Under the pieces are notes generated by a model. It was given only the letters and a program-made list of their open reading frames with translations. It had not been told where the DNA came from and ran no database searches. DNA of 64,000 nt from Erythrobacteraceae bacterium (GTDB lineage: Bacteria > Pseudomonadota > Alphaproteobacteria > Sphingomonadales > Sphingomonadaceae). Position 1 is the first letter of the stretch, and each line of letters starts with the position of its first letter. This document shows positions 1 to 19,690 of the stretch, one piece after another. The stretch is from the NCBI GenBank assembly GCA_027486035.1, contig JAIXPX010000033.1:1-64000 (forward strand). The letters are read 5' to 3'. The translations under genes and the position numbers were made by a program.

Positions 1-3000
1 GTCGAGATGCCGAGCGTGTCCTGCCCGGCCCGCTCGAACACCAGATCGGGGCTGCCGCGCGGGTTGTCGGGCGAGCGCAGGATCTTGCCCACCGCCGATC
101 CGAAGGGCTTCATCACCCGGTCCTGATAATCGCGCACTGCCGCCTTGAAGACCTCGATATCCACCTTGGCATCGGGCAGGCGCGGCATGGTGTCGGGCCA
201 GTGGAAATTCGCGCCCTCGCGGCGGCGGATGGACTCGAGGCTGACGATGCCTTCGATCGCGTCCTCGAGCCCCAGCGATTGCAGGAACTCGCGCTGCCCG
301 TCGGTGGTGGTGGCAATCACCGAGCGCGCGTTGAAACGCCGCGCCGCTTCGATCATTTCGAGCCCGGTCTCATCGAGCAGTTCGGAGGAGCCCGGCCCGT
401 AGAAGATCAGCACCGCCTCGCCGCCGCGAAGCTGGGCGCGCCGGAGCATCTCCTCGGGGGAAGCCGTTCCCGGCTTGCCCATGAAGCTGAAATGATAGCC
501 CGACGAGGCCCCGTAAAAGGCGAGCGTGCCCCCTTCCGCAAGCAGCTGGAACGAGCGCGGGAAGGCCGTCTCCCCCGCGTGGCTGACCACGTAATCGGCA
601 AGCTTGCCGCCATTGAGCGCCTTGTAGGCCTCGACCAGCGGCGCGCCTGCAGCTTCCCACGCCTGCGCCTCGGCCTTGTCTTCGGGCACCACGGAGTAGA
701 GGCTGGCAAAGCGCGGATCCTTGCGGTTGATCGCCCCGACAGCGCCCTGCACCTTGGTGATGAAATCGGCGCGCTCGCCAGACGACACCAGCCCCGTCAC
801 CTGCAAGCCCGTCCGCACCGACGACCGCAGCGCATCCAGCCCCGTCCCCGTCGCCGCACCCTCAACGAACAACGTCCGCCCCGGCGCGATTTGCAAGGTG
901 GTGAACAGGCAGCGCGCGATCGTGCCGAGGTTGAGCACATAGCTCCCCGCCTGCTCCAGCGTCAGATCGGGCGGCACCTTGTGCATCTGCGGGGCCTGCA
1001 CGGTGAGAAACTGCGCATGGCTACCGGTCTCGGTCTCGTAGCCCTGAATGCTGAAGTCAGCATACATCGGGTCATTGCCGACCAGCGGGCTCAGGAGATC
1101 ATTGGTGCCGGAATAGACCGTCACCAAGTCGCCGACCTTGATCCGCCCCTGCGCGCGCGTTTCGGAGCCCAGAGCCGCGACCAGCGCGATGCCGCCCGAT
1201 CCGGTGATCTGGACGTCTTCCTCGTGGCTGTCGAAGGGCGAGACCGGGATTCCGGTCAGAGCCCAGATGTCGTTGAAGTTGACCTCGCTCGTCAGCATGT
1301 AGAGCAGCGCCTCGTTGGGCGCAGGCTCGGGGGTTGTGACGATCAGCTCCTTCTCGTGGCTCGCCGGGGGGCCGAAGCGGGGCTGGCCCGTGTCGGGATC
1401 GCGGGCGATGCCGAAGGCATACTGATAGGGCGGGATCGGGGTCACGCCGGGGAAGAACGGCGCGCCGACCGGCAGGAGGTCGCCCGCTGCCTCAAGGGCT
1501 TGCGCACGCATCTCGTGCTCGGCATCGATCCACACCCCGTCGCGCCGCACCGGGAGCGGGGGCGCAACCTTGTCCATGAATTGCTTGATGCCGGTCTTCC
1601 CGCCCTCGGGATCGACGATGGCCTCGGAGAACAGCCGCGCCTCGCGCGCCGTGCCTTGCGTGATGCCATGTTCGAGCCCGGTGCGCACCGCGTCCAAGGC
1701 CCGCGCGCCCGCGACATCGCGGCCCGCCCAGGCGAGCTGGCGCAGGATGCGCTGGAGGAAGTCGTCTTCCAGAACCGCATCGAGCGACACATCCGCTGCG
1801 CTTTCCCAGCGCGCGGTTGCCGCCTGGCGCTCGGCAAAGGCGAAACCGAGCGCGCTGTCCGGCCCGCGCTTCACAAAGTTGCGCACCGCGGCGTGGGCGG
1901 CCGAAAGCGCATCTTCCGCGCCGTCCACCAATTGATCGACCACGCCGATAGCGGCGGCCTGCTCAGCGGTGATGCTGCGCCCGCCAAGAATCAGGTCGAG
2001 CGCATCGCGCACGCCCTCCGCGCCCCGCCGGTCGAGCAACAGGCGCGGCAGGCGCTGCGTGCCGCCATAGCCGGGGAGCAAGCGCAGCCGGATCTCCGGC
2101 TGGCCGAAGCGCGCCACGGGCTCGGCCACGCGGTAATGGCAGGCGAGCGCGAATTCCATGCCGCCGCCCAGCGCCACGCCCTGCACCGCCGCGACGCAGG
2201 GCTTGCCCATGCTCTCGATGGTGCGGAAAGCGAGGTGCGCATTGTTGGGGAGGACCATGGCCTCCTCGACCGTGTGGATCTCCTCCAGCATCTGGCGGAT
2301 GTCCGCCCCCGCCACGAAGGACGAGGTGCCCTCGCCGGTGAACACCACCGCGACCACCGAATCGTCACGGGCCAGCGTCGAGGTGACCAGCACCAGCTCG
2401 TCGATGGCGCGCTCGTTGAGCGCATTGACCGGCGCGTTGGTGACGGTGACCGTCGCCACCTGCTTGCCCGGCGCGACAGTGTTGTACTGCACGAGGAAAT
2501 AGCGGTGCCGGTCGAACAGCGCCTGCTCGTCCGACAAACGCTGCCTGCGCTGCCATTCGGTGATGACCTTGCGCAATTCGTCAAGCGCCTCGGGGTTGCG
2601 CAGCGTCGTGACGTCGCCGACATCCTCGCCCACCACCAGCGCGCGGACCATGCGGCGCATATACTTGCCCGAGCGCGTCTCGGGGAACTGCGAGACCTCG
2701 ATGAAGTCCGCCGGCACCGCGACCGCGCCTTTCTCGGTGCGCACCAGATCGAACAACCGGCGCTTGTCCTCGTGTGTCAGCTTGCGGCCCGCGACGGGCA
2801 CCACGAAGGCGAGCGGGGTCAGCCCCTTCTCGCGGTGCGGCGCGCCGACCACCAGCACATTGCCGACGGGCGAGTCCGGCGCCAGCGCCTTGTCGCGCAG
2901 CACCGCGCCCTCGATCTCCTCGGTCCCCATGCGGTGGCCCGAGACGTTGATCACGTCGTCCGAGCGGCCGTGGAAAGAGAAGGAGCCGTCCGCGTGCTGG

Positions 3001-5105
3001 ATCGCGAAATCGCCCTGGGTATAGGCCCAGGCGCCCTTCCAGCGCCGCCAGTAGCCTTCCTCCCAGCGCGTCGCATCGCCGCGCCAGGCGGGATCGACGC
3101 GGCCGTCCTCGACCTTGAAGCCGGCGATGTCGCCCCAGATCGTGCGCGCGAGATAGGGATAAGGCGCGGCGATCACGATCTCGCCCTTCTCGCCGATATC
3201 GGCCTTGCGCCACGGCACGCCGCCGTCTTCCGAGCGCGCGAAGGGAGCATGCGCGCCCGTGCCTTCATCGTCCTCGACCCACACATCGCCGACGATCCAC
3301 GGCAGCGGATAGGCGTGGGCATCGGGACGCAGCGGGAAATCCTCGTTGCCGAACATATGCGTCCACGCGATCCCACCGTGCTCGGTCGCCCAGTAGGAGT
3401 TGATGTAGCGGGGGGTGACGTGCTCCATCCCGAAGGCCTGCACGCTGGGGCTGACCGGCTCGGCGCAGAAGGTCGCCACGCGCAGCCCGCTCATGTCGTA
3501 GCGTTCGAGCTCGGCAAGGTTCGCCGGGTCCGACATGATCGCCTTGAGGAAAGTCACGCCCGCCTTGAAAATGCGGACATTGTGTCGCTCGATCATCGAG
3601 GCAAAGCGCCCCGCGTGGGGGAAGACCGGCGAGCCTTCGGAAACGAGCGTGGTCACCCGCGTCATCAGCGGCGCGCAGATGAGGTAGCTCTGCCCGGTGA
3701 TCCAGCCCGGATCGGCGACCACGAACAGCGTGTCCCCGGCGCGCGCGTCGAAGCTCGCCTTCATCGTTTCGGCCACGCCTGCGGCATAGCCGTGGCTGTG
3801 GACGATCCCCTTGGGCTTGCCCGTGCTGCCCGAGGTGTAGATGAAGAACATCGGGTAGTCGGCATCGACCGGCATGGGCTTGGAGGAAGCCCATATCGCG
3901 CGGACGAAATCGCCGTCCGCCAGCGCCATCAGCTCGGCTTCCGACTGGACGGCGAAGCCTGCGGCCCGCGCCTTCTCCAACACCGTGCCGAGCGCCGCCT
4001 CGGTCAGCGCGTGGCTCCAGCGGTCGCGCTCCTCGCGCCAGATCATGTCGGGCTGGTGCGTGTGCCGGCACACGATCACCGCCTCCACGCGCGGCGGCAG
4101 GGTCACGAGGCTCGAGGCGATGGCGATCCGCACACGGGCCGCATCGGCGCTGGTGATCCGCCCCTCGCTCCCGAGATTGATGAGCGCCTTGCCCACGCCG
4201 CGCATCACGTCGGAACGATCGACCGTGATCTCCCCGGCCAGCGCCTCGCGCACCGTCTCGAGGATCGCCGCGTGGCCACCTTCGGGCAGGCCGAGCTCAA
4301 GCCCGCCGAGGATCTCGAGCGCCGTCGTCACCGGTACGAAATTGTCGAGCGCCGGGTCGGTATAGGCGTTCTTGAACGCGGCGACCTGGGCGTTCCTGTA
4401 GGAACCGTCCGAGGTAACGATCACCCGCGCGCCGGTGTCGGCGATGCGGTCCGAGAGGGTCTTGTCGGAGAACCCGCCGAACACCGCCGTATAGACCACG
4501 CCCATGCGCTTGGCCGCCTCGGTCCAGTAGATCTGCGGCACGATGCTCGGCATGTTGAGCGCCATCCGGTCGCCCGCTTTCAGGCCCAGCGCTTCCAGCG
4601 CCACCGCGCACTTCGCCACTTCCAGCAGCAAGCGCTTGCGGCTGATCGTGAAGCAATCGATCGGCGCGCCCTTGCCGCCGCCCGCGCTCATGTCCCAGCG
4701 GTCGCCCTCGAAGATCAGCGCCGCTTCGGCCCCGTGCCCGGCGAGCACATGGCGATCGAGTTCGGAGAAGGCGGCATTGGTCCGGCCGCCGACAAACCAG
4801 CGCCAGTGCGGCGGGTTGGAACCGTCAAACCCGGTGTGCCACGGTGAAAAATCCTCTGGCAATTCAAGGAGCAAAGGCTCGGCCGAGACCGCGTCCCAAC
4901 CCTGCCAGCGCCCGTCCTCCTGCCGCGCGAGCCACGCGCCAGCGGGCCCTGCATCAGCCACGAACCAGTGCATGTTGCGCGCGGCAATCGCCCCGTGGAA
5001 GGCGCCGGGATCGGCAAGGGCCGCAGCGCGCATCGCGTCCCACTGGGCGCGGCTGCGCAGGCTGTTGGACCGGGCGGCAATCGGGCTTGCCGGCAGAGTG
5101 CTCAC
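1..5105 (-). CDS. pcs: Propionyl-CoA synthase (acyl-CoA synthetase + enoyl-CoA hydratase + enoyl-CoA reductase fusion), 3' end outside window
   Basis: Continuous minus-strand reading frame (not in the ORF track because it runs off the edge) with AMP-binding motif YTSGSTGKPKGIVHSHG, hydratase motif QGVALGGGMEFALACHYRVA and a C-terminal MDR-type reductase domain (EGAATGTGLDALRSSVRTGLQVTGLV). Putative GTG start at 5105. Confidence 0.9.
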   Translation of the reverse strand, partial: MSTLPASPIAARSNSLRSRAQWDAMRAAALADPGAFHGAIAARNMHWFVADAGPAGAWLARQEDGRWQGWDAVSAEPLLLELPEDFSPWHTGFDGSNPPHWRWFVGGRTNAAFSELDRHVLAGHGAEAALIFEGDRWDMSAGGGKGAPIDCFTISRKRLLLEVAKCAVALEALGLKAGDRMALNMPSIVPQIYWTEAAKRMGVVYTAVFGGFSDKTLSDRIADTGARVIVTSDGSYRNAQVAAFKNAYTDPALDNFVPVTTALEILGGLELGLPEGGHAAILETVREALAGEITVDRSDVMRGVGKALINLGSEGRITSADAARVRIAIASSLVTLPPRVEAVIVCRHTHQPDMIWREERDRWSHALTEAALGTVLEKARAAGFAVQSEAELMALADGDFVRAIWASSKPMPVDADYPMFFIYTSGSTGKPKGIVHSHGYAAGVAETMKASFDARAGDTLFVVADPGWITGQSYLICAPLMTRVTTLVSEGSPVFPHAGRFASMIERHNVRIFKAGVTFLKAIMSDPANLAELERYDMSGLRVATFCAEPVSPSVQAFGMEHVTPRYINSYWATEHGGIAWTHMFGNEDFPLRPDAHAYPLPWIVGDVWVEDDEGTGAHAPFARSEDGGVPWRKADIGEKGEIVIAAPYPYLARTIWGDIAGFKVEDGRVDPAWRGDATRWEEGYWRRWKGAWAYTQGDFAIQHADGSFSFHGRSDDVINVSGHRMGTEEIEGAVLRDKALAPDSPVGNVLVVGAPHREKGLTPLAFVVPVAGRKLTHEDKRRLFDLVRTEKGAVAVPADFIEVSQFPETRSGKYMRRMVRALVVGEDVGDVTTLRNPEALDELRKVITEWQRRQRLSDEQALFDRHRYFLVQYNTVAPGKQVATVTVTNAPVNALNERAIDELVLVTSTLARDDSVVAVVFTGEGTSSFVAGADIRQMLEEIHTVEEAMVLPNNAHLAFRTIESMGKPCVAAVQGVALGGGMEFALACHYRVAEPVARFGQPEIRLRLLPGYGGTQRLPRLLLDRRGAEGVRDALDLILGGRSITAEQAAAIGVVDQLVDGAEDALSAAHAAVRNFVKRGPDSALGFAFAERQAATARWESAADVSLDAVLEDDFLQRILRQLAWAGRDVAGARALDAVRTGLEHGITQGTAREARLFSEAIVDPEGGKTGIKQFMDKVAPPLPVRRDGVWIDAEHEMRAQALEAAGDLLPVGAPFFPGVTPIPPYQYAFGIARDPDTGQPRFGPPASHEKELIVTTPEPAPNEALLYMLTSEVNFNDIWALTGIPVSPFDSHEEDVQITGSGGIALVAALGSETRAQGRIKVGDLVTVYSGTNDLLSPLVGNDPMYADFSIQGYETETGSHAQFLTVQAPQMHKVPPDLTLEQAGSYVLNLGTIARCLFTTLQIAPGRTLFVEGAATGTGLDALRSSVRTGLQVTGLVSSGERADFITKVQGAVGAINRKDPRFASLYSVVPEDKAEAQAWEAAGAPLVEAYKALNGGKLADYVVSHAGETAFPRSFQLLAEGGTLAFYGASSGYHFSFMGKPGTASPEEMLRRAQLRGGEAVLIFYGPGSSELLDETGLEMIEAARRFNARSVIATTTDGQREFLQSLGLEDAIEGIVSLESIRRREGANFHWPDTMPRLPDAKVDIEVFKAAVRDYQDRVMKPFGSAVGKILRSPDNPRGSPDLVFERAGQDTLGIS

Positions 5106-5323
5106 AGGAATGACGCTATCCCCCGTTGAGAGCAAAACTCGCAAGGGCGCGATCCCGAACGCCTGGGCGGTGTTGCATTAAAATTGCACGAAGCGAAACG
5201 CCTCGGCAAGAAAATGCCAAAGCATTGCTTGGATCGATAACGCCGCTGTGCCCCAAGGGTTCCAACACGAAGCCCGCGCGCCAGCGCTTCGGCCTGCGCC
5301 GCACACGGCGCGGCGCATTGGCG

Positions 5324-14545: not shown

Positions 14546-15622
14546 TCAGAGCGGCGACCACTCAGGAGTGTCACCGTCGTCCTCCACCTCGACCGTCTTG
14601 GTCTCGGTCGCGGTGCGATCCGGCAGGTAGGCGAGCACCGCGTCGAGCAATTCCGGGATGCCCGCGCCGGTCGCGCCGGAGACGGCGAAGACCTGCTCCG
14701 CGCCGGCGGCCAGCAGCTCCTCGCGGAAGCCCTCGACCAGTTCGGCATCGGCCAGATCGAGCTTGTTGAGCACCACCAGCCGGGGCTTTTCGTCAAGGCG
14801 CGTGTGCTCCTTGTCGCCATAGGCGGCGAGTTCCTCCTCGACGATGCGCATCGCCTCGGCGGGGTCGGCATCCTCGGTGCCGGTGATGTCGATGAGGTGG
14901 ATCAGCACCCGGCAGCGCTCGATATGGCCGAGGAAGCGGTCGCCGATCCCGACGCCGTCCGCCGCGCCCTCGATCAACCCGGGAATGTCGGCGAGCACGA
15001 ATTCGCGGCCCTTGTGGCGCACCACGCCGAGCTTGGGGACGAGCGTGGTGAAGGCATAATCGCCGACCTTCGCCTGCGCGTTGGAGACGGCATTGATGAA
15101 GGTCGATTTGCCCGCATTGGGCAGGCCGACAAGGCCGACGTCGGCGAGCAGCTTGAGCCGCAGCCACACCCACATCTCCTCGCCCGGAATGCCGGGTTGG
15201 TGCTGGCGCGGGGCGCGGTTGGTCGAGGTCTTGTAGCTGGCATTCCCGCGCCCGCCCATGCCGCCTTCGAGGAAGACGATCCGCTGCCCGACCTCGGTGA
15301 AGTCGGCGAGCACCTCCTCCTTGTCCTCGGAGAGGATCTGCGTGCCCACCGGCACCTTGATGACCAGCGGCTCGGCCGAGGCGCCGGTGCGATCCTTGCC
15401 CATGCCGTGCCCGCCGCGCGGGGCCTTGAAGTGCTGCGAATAGCGGAAATCGATCAGCGTGTTGAGCCCGGCAACGGCCTCGAACACGATGTCGCCCCCG
15501 CGCCCGCCATTGCCGCCATCGGGGCCGCCATATTCGACATATTTCTCGCGGCGGAACGAGACGGCGCCGGGGCCGCCTCCGCCGGACTTCACGTAGATCT
15601 TGGCCTGGTCAAGGAAATGCAT
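14546..15622 (-). CDS. obgE: Obg/CgtA GTPase
   Basis: MHFLDQAKIYVKSGGGGPGAVSFRREK..., GLPNAGKSTFINAVS, DIPGLIEGAADGVGIG. Confidence 0.96.
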   Translation of the reverse strand: MHFLDQAKIYVKSGGGGPGAVSFRREKYVEYGGPDGGNGGRGGDIVFEAVAGLNTLIDFRYSQHFKAPRGGHGMGKDRTGASAEPLVIKVPVGTQILSEDKEEVLADFTEVGQRIVFLEGGMGGRGNASYKTSTNRAPRQHQPGIPGEEMWVWLRLKLLADVGLVGLPNAGKSTFINAVSNAQAKVGDYAFTTLVPKLGVVRHKGREFVLADIPGLIEGAADGVGIGDRFLGHIERCRVLIHLIDITGTEDADPAEAMRIVEEELAAYGDKEHTRLDEKPRLVVLNKLDLADAELVEGFREELLAAGAEQVFAVSGATGAGIPELLDAVLAYLPDRTATETKTVEVEDDGDTPEWSPL

Positions 15623-15670: not shown

Positions 15671-16588
15671 TCAGAGCTTGCGGATGAAGGCTTGGAGGCG
15701 TTCGGGCACCGCGTCGGCTGCGTGCACGAGGCAGGCGAGCACCTCGGCGCTCTCGACCAGCCGGGGGCCGGGGCGGTTGAACAGGTGGTGGCCGTCGACC
15801 GCGAAGACCCGCCCCTCGCGCACCGCCCTGAGGCTCCGCCATGGCTCTTCAGCCAGCAGCGCGCGGGCTTCGGGCAGGGTCTGGGCGAGCTGGTAGCCGC
15901 AAGGCATGAAGGCGATGATATCGGGATCGGCGGCGACCACAGCCCCCGCCTCGATCCCGTGCGAATGCACTCCCGGCGCGGCGAGCAGGGGCTCGGCCCC
16001 GGCGGCCCTGATCAGTTCCGGCACCCAGTTGCCCGCGACCATCAGGGGCGCGATCCACTCGACCGCGAGGATGGTGGGGCGAATGGCAGGCGCGGCGGGG
16101 AGCGCGCCGAACCCGGCCCGCATCCGCGCCGCCGCCTCGGCTGCGCGCCCGGGCACGCCGGCGGCCCCGGCCACGCGGGCGAGATCGCCGAAGACGTCCG
16201 CCAGATCATCGGGCGCGAGCGAGACCAGCACGGGCGGCGCGCCGATCCACGTCGCCAGCGCCTCCTCGAGATCGGCAGGCGTCACCGCGCAGACCGCGCA
16301 TTGCGCCTGGGTCAGGATGACGTCGGGCCTAAGCGACTTCAGCAGCGGCGCATCGACATCATAGACCGACAGGCCCTGCTCGACGATCGCCTTCACCCGG
16401 TCCTCGATCGCCTGGGAGGACAGGCCCTTCTCCAGCTTGGTCGAAGTGCAAACGGGCAGCGCCTTCACCGTCGGCGGAAAGTCGCATTCGTGCGAGCGGC
16501 CGACGAGGCTTTCCTGCAACCCCAGCGCCACCGCGATCTCGGTGGCGCTGGGGAGCAGGGAGACGATCCGCAGGGACGCGGCGCTCAT
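15671..16588 (-). CDS. BtuF-like cobalamin-binding protein without obvious signal peptide
   Basis: RIVSLLPSATEIAVALGLQESLVGRSHECDFP...; periplasmic-binding-protein fold motifs; ATGA overlap with the upstream membrane protein gene. Confidence 0.8.
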   Translation of the reverse strand: MSAASLRIVSLLPSATEIAVALGLQESLVGRSHECDFPPTVKALPVCTSTKLEKGLSSQAIEDRVKAIVEQGLSVYDVDAPLLKSLRPDVILTQAQCAVCAVTPADLEEALATWIGAPPVLVSLAPDDLADVFGDLARVAGAAGVPGRAAEAAARMRAGFGALPAAPAIRPTILAVEWIAPLMVAGNWVPELIRAAGAEPLLAAPGVHSHGIEAGAVVAADPDIIAFMPCGYQLAQTLPEARALLAEEPWRSLRAVREGRVFAVDGHHLFNRPGPRLVESAEVLACLVHAADAVPERLQAFIRKL

Positions 16589-17091
16589 CGCACCTGCCAC
16601 GCTGCCGGCATCGGCACGCGCCCGAGCACCTGCCAGCCAAGCCACAGCCCGGCGAACCACAGCGCGTCATTGAGCGCGATCAGCCCCACGATCTTCGGCG
16701 CAAACAGAGCCGGATCGCCGAAGGGGAGCGCATAGGCGAAGAGGCTCGCCTCGAAGGCCGCGAAGGCGGCAAGGAAGGCCGCAACCGGCCCTCCCCTGAC
16801 TGCCCGCGCAGCCGCACAGGCAAGAAGGCTCGAGACGAGTAACGAAAGCCCTGCCGCAAGGGTAGGCCCGTCCCACGGAAAGCCCATCAGCCCGAAGCCG
16901 AGCACCTGGTTGCCAAGCCAGCACGCCGCCACCGTCGCCATGGCCCGCGAAGGCGGCATGGCGAGCGCGGCGATGGTGGCAACAGCAGCGAAGGGCATCA
17001 TGCAGGCGAACACCACCGTCCCGCTGAGCGTGGTTGCGGCAAGGATCGCGGGAAGCGCCAATGATGGGAGCGACTTTTTCAGATCGGTCAT
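16585..17091 (-). CDS. Small multi-TM membrane protein in the cobalamin operon, candidate transporter component
   Basis: 168 aa, several hydrophobic segments; overlaps btuB stop (ATGA) and the btuF-like start. Confidence 0.7.
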   Translation of the reverse strand: MTDLKKSLPSLALPAILAATTLSGTVVFACMMPFAAVATIAALAMPPSRAMATVAACWLGNQVLGFGLMGFPWDGPTLAAGLSLLVSSLLACAAARAVRGGPVAAFLAAFAAFEASLFAYALPFGDPALFAPKIVGLIALNDALWFAGLWLGWQVLGRVPMPAAWQVR

Positions 17092-19061
17092 CGTCCAGCC
17101 CTCCCTAAGAACCGCGCCTCGACGCCCACCACCGCCGAGCGGCCCGGCGAGACAAAGCTGAACACCTGTTCGTAGCGTTCATTCAGCAGGTTCTCGGCGC
17201 GGGCAAAGGCGCTGATCCCTTGCGCCAGCCTGACCCGCGCGTTGAGGTTGACGAGGGTGAAGTCGTCAAGCTGCACCCGCACCGGCACGAAGCTGGGATC
17301 GGTGAAGGCAACATCGCCCGTCGCCCCGTTGTGGCGCACCACCAGCGTTGCCGAAGCCTTGTCGCCCGATGCCGTCCATGTCAGCGCGGCGCTGGCAATA
17401 TGCGCGGGGCGGCGGACCTCCTCGACCCCGTTTTCCTCGGCATCGAGCCAGGAATAGGCGGCATCGAGGTTCCAGCCTTGGGCAAGGCGGGCGCCGAGCG
17501 ACACCTCGATCCCGCGCTGCGTGCTTGTCGTGGAGCGATTGGCCGGAGTGGCGATGAAGGCGGGCGGCGGGAAGGTGGTGAAGATTTCGCCGTCCAGTTT
17601 GCTGTCGAAATAGGTCACCGCCAGGCTGGCAGCCTCGCCCAGTTGCTGGTCGAGGCCCGCTTCCCAGCCTTCAGACCTCTCCGGGCGAAGCGCGGCATTG
17701 CCGATGAAGCGCCCGTCGACAAAGCCGTAAAGCTCGAAGAAGCCGGGGTTCTTGATCCCCGAGCCTGCCGCTGCCCTCAGCCGCGTTGCATCGGTCAGGC
17801 GGTACCCTGCCCCGAGCCGATAGGTGGTCGCGTCGCGGAAGATATCGTTGAAATCGTGGCGGATTGCGGCCGAAAGGTCGAGAGCCTCGCCGCTATAGCG
17901 ATATTCCCCGACCAGGCCGACCTGTTCGATCTCGCGCCGGCCGTTGAAGGCAAAGCCGCCCGGCGTGGTGTTGCGGAAGCCCTCCTGCTCGTAATCGGCC
18001 GCCAGGGTCAGGCTGTGCCCGTCGCCGGGCGCGAAGGCGCTGACATAGGAGAGCTTCACACGGTCGCCCGCGCTGCCCGAGGTGCGGCCGAAGGCAGCAA
18101 AGCTGTCGCGGGTGATGTCGGCCATCTGGGCCGAGAGATCATGCGTCCAGCGCCCCTCCAGCATATCCAGCCGCGCGCCGACAAGGGCATAGAAGGCCTC
18201 GTTGGTGAAGCGCGTGCCCGGACTGTCGATGGTCAGGCCGAAACGCGGGCTGGAGGCGTCGAAATCGCTGTTGTTGAACGGCCCCTCGGTGCGGATGAAG
18301 CGGGCCGCAGCGCGCAGCTCGAGACCATCCGTCACCGCAAGGCTGCCCTTGCCGGCCAACGTGTAGCTATCCCGTCCGATATCGCGGGTGCCGCCTCTGG
18401 CGTTGGGCTGGCCGTCGGTGCTGAGCACGACGGCAGAGAGCGCCGCGTCCCAGCCCGCGCCGAACGCGCCGTAGCGCACAGCACCATTGGCGGTCCCCTG
18501 CGTGCCGGCCTCGAGCCGCCCTGCCAGCCCGGCAATGCTGCTGCCGCGCGCGGTCTCGTAGGCGACCACGCCGCCGACCGCGTCCGAACCATAGAGCGCC
18601 GATTGCGGACCGCGCAGCACTTCGAGCCGCGCGCCGACATCGGCGGCAAGCGTGCCGATGTCGAATTCGCCGGCGAAGGGATCGGAAACTTCGATGCCGT
18701 CGACCAGCACCAGCACATGATTGGCTTCCGAGCCGCGAAGACGGATCTGGGTCTGTCCCGCCACGCCCGCAACCGCCACGCCCGGAACATCGCGCAGCAC
18801 ATCGGCGATGTCCCGGGTCTGGCGGGCTTCGAGCTGCGCATTGGTGATCACGGTGACCGAGCCGGGATAGCGCTCCGGCAGATCGCTCGCCCCGGACCGC
18901 GTCGTGCTGACGATGATATCGCCGCGCATGGCGTCGGCGATGACGACCTCGTCCTCGCCCGGCTTCTCCGGCGCGCGCGCAGCCGCGTCCTGCGCCGCCA
19001 CAGGCACGCCCCAACCCAGCGCTGCCACGGCAACGCTATCCAGCAATGTCCAGTTTTTCAC
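17088..19061 (-). CDS. btuB: TonB-dependent cobalamin receptor BtuB-like
   Basis: Plug domain VTVITNAQLEARQTRDIADVLRDVPGVAV...IRLRGSEANHVLVLVDGIEVSDP; C-terminal beta barrel; cobalamin riboswitch upstream. Confidence 0.87.
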   Translation of the reverse strand: MKNWTLLDSVAVAALGWGVPVAAQDAAARAPEKPGEDEVVIADAMRGDIIVSTTRSGASDLPERYPGSVTVITNAQLEARQTRDIADVLRDVPGVAVAGVAGQTQIRLRGSEANHVLVLVDGIEVSDPFAGEFDIGTLAADVGARLEVLRGPQSALYGSDAVGGVVAYETARGSSIAGLAGRLEAGTQGTANGAVRYGAFGAGWDAALSAVVLSTDGQPNARGGTRDIGRDSYTLAGKGSLAVTDGLELRAAARFIRTEGPFNNSDFDASSPRFGLTIDSPGTRFTNEAFYALVGARLDMLEGRWTHDLSAQMADITRDSFAAFGRTSGSAGDRVKLSYVSAFAPGDGHSLTLAADYEQEGFRNTTPGGFAFNGRREIEQVGLVGEYRYSGEALDLSAAIRHDFNDIFRDATTYRLGAGYRLTDATRLRAAAGSGIKNPGFFELYGFVDGRFIGNAALRPERSEGWEAGLDQQLGEAASLAVTYFDSKLDGEIFTTFPPPAFIATPANRSTTSTQRGIEVSLGARLAQGWNLDAAYSWLDAEENGVEEVRRPAHIASAALTWTASGDKASATLVVRHNGATGDVAFTDPSFVPVRVQLDDFTLVNLNARVRLAQGISAFARAENLLNERYEQVFSFVSPGRSAVVGVEARFLGRAGR

Positions 19062-19194
19062 GGATTCCTCCCGTCACAAGCAACATGGTAGCTGCAAGGG
19101 GATGCCTCCCCCGCAGCTCAGCGATGTCGCTCACAACGAAAGTCTGTTTCCGCGCCTGGCCAACCCCTGAACCAAGCAAAGAGCGACACGCCCC

Positions 19195-19375
19195 GGTCGG
19201 TCTCCTGGCTCGCGGGTCAGCGCATGAGGTGCTCACCTTCCCAGGGCATTGCCGCCCCAGTGGCTGCCCCCTTCCGGTCAAAGACCTTTAGGGGCGCGCA
19301 CGCCATACTCGCCGCTTACAGTTGCAGGGACAGCTGCGGAATCGAACCGCATTCCCGTTACCTTGGCGCGTTTAT
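19195..19375 (-). ncRNA. Cobalamin riboswitch
   Basis: Minus strand reads GGTAACGGGAATGCGGTTCGATTCCGCAGCTGTCCCTGCAACTGTAAGCGGCGAG...GCAGCCACTGGGG...GGGAAGGTGAG...GCGAGCCAGGAGACCGACCGG; B12 box and conserved flanking elements present. Confidence 0.93.

Positions 19376-19614: not shown

Positions 19615-19690
<76 letters not shown>

Follow-up and report, generated by a model that had tools for sequence, protein, structure and literature searches.

Many B12-dependent Gram-negative bacteria possess BtuB and no recognisable BtuCD (PMC6072759, PMC2667541), which raises the question of how the vitamin crosses their inner membrane. In Thiobacillus denitrificans, this step is performed by BtuM, a solitary S-component-like B12 importer (PMC6072759). 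Here, the question is posed by a cobalamin operon of an Erythrobacteraceae bacterium, located in a stretch of 64,000 nucleotides of contig JAIXPX010000033.1 (the window), in which two genes follow btuB, one for a 168-residue membrane protein (M168) and one for a protein resembling BtuF (F305). Based on the linkage of M168 to cobalamin riboswitches, its occurrence in genomes with MetH and without CbiC or FecCD-family permeases, and an invariant cysteine at the end of its first transmembrane helix, we infer that M168 is fairly likely to import cobalamin or other corrinoids across the inner membrane without a dedicated ABC motor, and that F305 would be the cytosolic acceptor.

Organization of the cobalamin operon

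All features of the operon lie on the minus strand. It is headed by a cobalamin riboswitch aptamer (RF00174; 19178..19380) that scores 85.1 bits in cmscan (E 1.6e-19), above the gathering score of 31.5 bits, and that is the sole cobalamin riboswitch detected genome-wide in the source assembly (2.55 Mb, 52 contigs, 89.9% complete). A tRNA-Ala(CGC) (19615-19690, minus strand) is present just upstream, and a tRNA precedes the riboswitch also at locus L041. The aptamer is followed by a btuB-like TonB-dependent receptor of 657 aa (17088..19061; PF00593 and PF07715), for which the top NCBIfam model is TIGR01779 TonB-B12 (E 4e-55, under the curated cut-off). Next are M168 (16585..17091), a six-helix membrane protein and candidate corrinoid importer as judged from AlphaFold, homologs and riboswitch linkage, and F305 (15671..16588), a leaderless BtuF-like protein (PF01497) and candidate cytosolic corrinoid acceptor. 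Overlaps of 4 nt, ATGA, join both btuB to M168 and M168 to F305, and the downstream neighbour of F305 in the list of open reading frames is obgE (14546..15622, minus strand), outside the system. The gene order given in the preliminary description is hence confirmed, as is its observation that no ABC permease or ATPase is found among the operon's open reading frames.

A BtuFCD-like cassette elsewhere in the genome

The description of the system as lacking BtuC and BtuD is right for the operon and wrong for the genome as a whole, and we reject the notion that the organism has no BtuCD. A single FecCD-family permease is encoded on contig 7, with a substrate-binding protein gene upstream and an ATPase gene downstream. 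This BtuFCD-like cassette (lipoprotein-like substrate-binding protein, BtuC-like permease and ATPase; locus L027, contig 7 of genome G000, 2360-4988) adjoins malate dehydrogenase and has no cobalamin riboswitch. The top NCBIfam models of the permease are BtuC models, with scores under their cut-offs.

Each of the 28 genus members tested has a FecCD permease, which is single-copy in all but G328; in G318 and G320, the sole copy sits in a riboswitch-TonB-SBP-permease-ATPase operon. G328 also carries a riboswitch-controlled TonB-SBP-permease-ATPase operon, along with broken and rearranged substrate-binding protein and permease pieces of the contig 7 type (locus L196, G328:C1:1236500-1245500, at about 4000-5300), apparently a replacement of the old cassette by the riboswitch-controlled operon caught midway. 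Because of this replacement in relatives and the single copy, the contig 7 cassette probably represents the (constitutive) BtuFCD, i.e. the B12 importer, of this organism. M168 and F305 would therefore constitute a second, regulated system here.

The M168 family and its linkage to cobalamin riboswitches

Within the order, 21 of the 301 genomes searched contain a convincing M168; at class level, a profile run against 385 genomes added 16 from other families, and a search with the single protein yielded one Sphingomonas locus; plasmid searches gave no match. As far as sequence comparison can tell, M168 thus belongs to an unnamed and uncharacterised family spread across Alphaproteobacteria. Its members are about 168-194 aa long, and Cys30, Pro33, Gln62 and Gly65 are invariant across 33 aligned homologs, forming the motifs CxxP and NQxxGF; the cysteine previously noticed in the first transmembrane segment is accordingly a constant feature, placed at the helix end. 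At locus L041 (G139:C1, 3941-4404), M168 is split over two frames in an otherwise whole riboswitch-btuB-M168-F305 operon, reflecting a frameshift or a sequencing error. In relatives without M168, obgE directly follows btuB, and a search for remnants between the two genes gave one weak match (G301, E 0.002).

M168 has no match in Pfam, NCBIfam or PDB sequences. A name for the family may nevertheless exist. BtuN is mentioned beside BtuB in annotations of Rhodocyclus and Methylobacterium as a predicted B12 transporter, with no sequence given (PMC8954225, PMC7038796), and several alternative inner-membrane B12 transport candidates besides BtuM have already been predicted (Rempel et al., PMC6072759). 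BtuN resembles M168 in being encoded beside BtuB and in its predicted B12 transport, a comparison by description and not by sequence. It is a real possibility, if the lesser one, that the M168 family is this predicted transporter, which would be a matter of naming compatible with import, the transporter prediction then not being new. Against this stand the lack of any NCBIfam or Pfam model covering M168 and the literature searched, where BtuN is only mentioned and the protein is not described further. The novelty of the family is claimed only within this limit.

A cobalamin riboswitch lies within a few kb at 31 of 37 M168 loci (the window, three from the genus, 16 from the rest of the order, 16 from the class and one Sphingomonas contig), while the remaining six have none even with a looser threshold. 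Such riboswitches are few, one or a few per genome and mostly one in genus members. Usually M168 follows a BtuB-type receptor; in at least five loci (L033, L038, L160, L161 and L170) the riboswitch is followed first by M168, with no receptor gene between. MetE (L163) and CobQ (L170) are among the other neighbours identified by eye. Four cobalamin riboswitches were observed in the genus member G347, of which three lie together within 11 kb (contig 29, 7303-18342) and the fourth (contig 22) heads a btuB-M168-F305 operon (L202).

Predicted structure of M168 and comparison with BtuM

The AlphaFold models of M168 (pLDDT 86, pTM 0.81) and of its G281 homolog (pLDDT 91.7, pTM 0.86) both display six main helices, the second of which is short. 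The N-terminus, L2, L4 and the C-terminus are positive in lysine and arginine counts, and loops 1, 3 and 5 are nearly free of these residues, placing the former inside and the latter outside. Cys30, Pro33, Pro72 and the helix 3 end that carries NQxxGF are consequently predicted at the periplasmic side of the model.

Foldseek returned no significant match for either model (E 2.1 and 4.1, TM-scores mostly <0.5). Among the 50 matches listed for each model, all with non-significant E, the best TM-scores were 0.46/0.58 for MreD (9dvb) and 0.39/0.39 for BtuM (8ovv); MreD ranked at the top for M168, and BtuM with hydroxycobalamin for the G281 homolog. MreD has the S-component fold (PMC11109136), and the likeness of the models to MreD and BtuM is a hint only. 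M168 shares six helices with ECF S-components and MreD, but differs from the former in having no EcfT in its own genome and no significant fold or sequence match.

M168 resembles BtuM in its small size, its six helices, its inner-membrane location, its linkage to btuB and the absence of EcfT from most hosts, as well as in a cysteine near the periplasmic face that is essential in BtuM and invariant in M168. The essential Cys80 of BtuM, a cobalt ligand, belongs to L3 and lies close to the periplasmic surface (PMC6072759), whereas the invariant cysteine of M168 is found in L1, at the end of helix 1; the sizes also differ (about 168-194 aa for M168, about 22 kDa for BtuM). Both phmmer and a profile search of PDB chains were empty at E up to 10, although the PDB structures used for the fold comparison include one of BtuM (8ovv). 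M168 was accordingly rejected as BtuM by sequence, and its cysteine is in L1, not L3. Of the earlier proposal of an ABC-independent corrinoid importer, the riboswitch linkage, the FecCD-less genomes with MetH and the invariant cysteine speak in favour, whereas homology to BtuM is unsupported, given the missing sequence match, a fold similarity below significance (TM 0.39) and a cysteine in another loop. By analogy, the best reading is that the family may work like BtuM, yet departs from it in sequence and cysteine position.

F305, a leaderless BtuF-like protein

F305 scores 45.8 bits against PF01497 (cut-off 27.5), and shares this fold family with the BtuF of BtuFCD; corrinoid uptake by the operon would likewise be located downstream of BtuB. 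In contrast to the type II ABC importer BtuFCD, the operon has no permease or ATPase, F305 is leaderless and M168 is not FecCD-like. When starts and upstream frames were compared, the only conserved ATG in 11 of 11 orthologs was found 4-9 codons before R(I/V)VSLLPSATE, the first strand motif, and therefore no signal peptide fits. Possible starts further upstream, for instance the GTG at 16660, were dismissed as the origin of a leader, since they lack conservation and would be read through M168 in a different frame. That F305 lacks a signal peptide, already suspected from the single sequence, hence holds for all orthologs. Cys35, Cys97, Cys100, Cys230, His33 and His208 are invariant among them. 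A second leaderless BtuF-like family (ERIVCLTEETVETLYLLG...) was observed directly after M168 at three distant loci from other alphaproteobacterial families (L160, 5557-6354; L161, minus strand, 4201-4998; L165, 5500-6267), again starting at the first strand of the domain. The simplest reading of these sequences is that F305 is a putative cytosolic corrinoid acceptor.

In a panel of 45 genomes, F305 is present in 11 of the 22 with M168 and in none of the 23 counted as M168-less (20 searched genome-wide for M168, three read at riboswitch loci only). MetH occurs in all 45 and CbiC in one, so that 44 of these genomes do not need cobalt for de novo corrin synthesis. Alternatively, M168 could anchor the cytosolic BtuF-like protein at the membrane or act as a sensor for it, or its substrate could be a different one under riboswitch control, e.g. 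cobalt or a B12 precursor: both leaderless families are encoded directly after it, and cobalt transporters are also common targets of cobalamin riboswitches (PMC3766115). We regard this as quite improbable, as half of the M168 genomes in the panel have no F305 to anchor, the near-complete lack of CbiC makes cobalt for corrin synthesis unneeded, and M168 usually follows a BtuB-type receptor.

Distribution of M168 relative to other importers

Among complete genomes of the order, M168 is present in 6 of 14 without FecCD permeases compared to 14 of 262 with them, an eightfold enrichment (Fisher p 1.4e-4) in which kinship is ignored. The six FecCD-less sphingomonad genomes (G057, G144, G185, G235, G259 and G281) represent five genera, and all six encode MetH and none CbiC. 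EcfT (PF02361) was detected neither in five of these six nor in the window's own genome (89.9% complete), and an ECF system including M168 was rejected for the latter. In a search that covered FecCD and EcfT, M168 was the only inner-membrane candidate found in the six. Eight further complete FecCD-less genomes have no M168, making the anticorrelation only partial; BacA/SbmA-type or BtuM-type importers may also be compatible with FecCD absence.

A FecCD-family transporter accompanies M168 in the genome studied here and in most M168 genomes, and M168 is therefore not always needed. This coexistence also fits another role, in which M168 would be an accessory corrinoid handler serving a BtuFCD-type transporter instead of an importer, for example by Cys30-dependent decyanation or base-off conversion at the periplasmic face. 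In G280, FecC-FecD genes immediately precede the riboswitch-TonB-M168 operon, and decyanation is an activity of BtuM itself (PMC6072759). The six complete genomes with M168 and MetH, lacking CbiC and any FecCD, argue against a mere helper, which we deem unlikely.

Discussion

Starting from the computed anatomy, conservation, linkage, distribution and topology, import by M168 may be envisaged as follows. BtuB would carry the corrinoid into the periplasm, where M168 would take it up and pass it through the membrane. By analogy to Cys80 of BtuM, the invariant Cys30, with which helix 1 ends, would be suitably positioned to serve as axial cobalt ligand. In the cytoplasm, F305, a BtuF fold whose signal peptide was lost or never present, would bind the corrinoid and assist in its retention or its transfer, e.g. 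to MetH. With plentiful B12, the riboswitch would turn the M168/F305 set off. In the organism studied here, the set would provide an extra, regulated route beside the constitutive BtuFCD-like transporter, and in some relatives the only recognisable inner-membrane route.

A more far-reaching version, to which we attach only tentative weight, is that M168 represents a separate, Alphaproteobacteria-wide family of ATP-independent corrinoid importers, with thiolate capture sited elsewhere than in BtuM and a cytosolic BtuF-fold acceptor on the trans side. If so, a substrate-binding protein, F305, would be working on the membrane side opposite to the usual one.

In conclusion, the M168 family is a candidate for the inner-membrane crossing of B12 in some Alphaproteobacteria without recognisable BtuCD. 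Should F305 be a cytosolic acceptor, this would suggest how a solitary S-component-like protein may drive net uptake without ATP.
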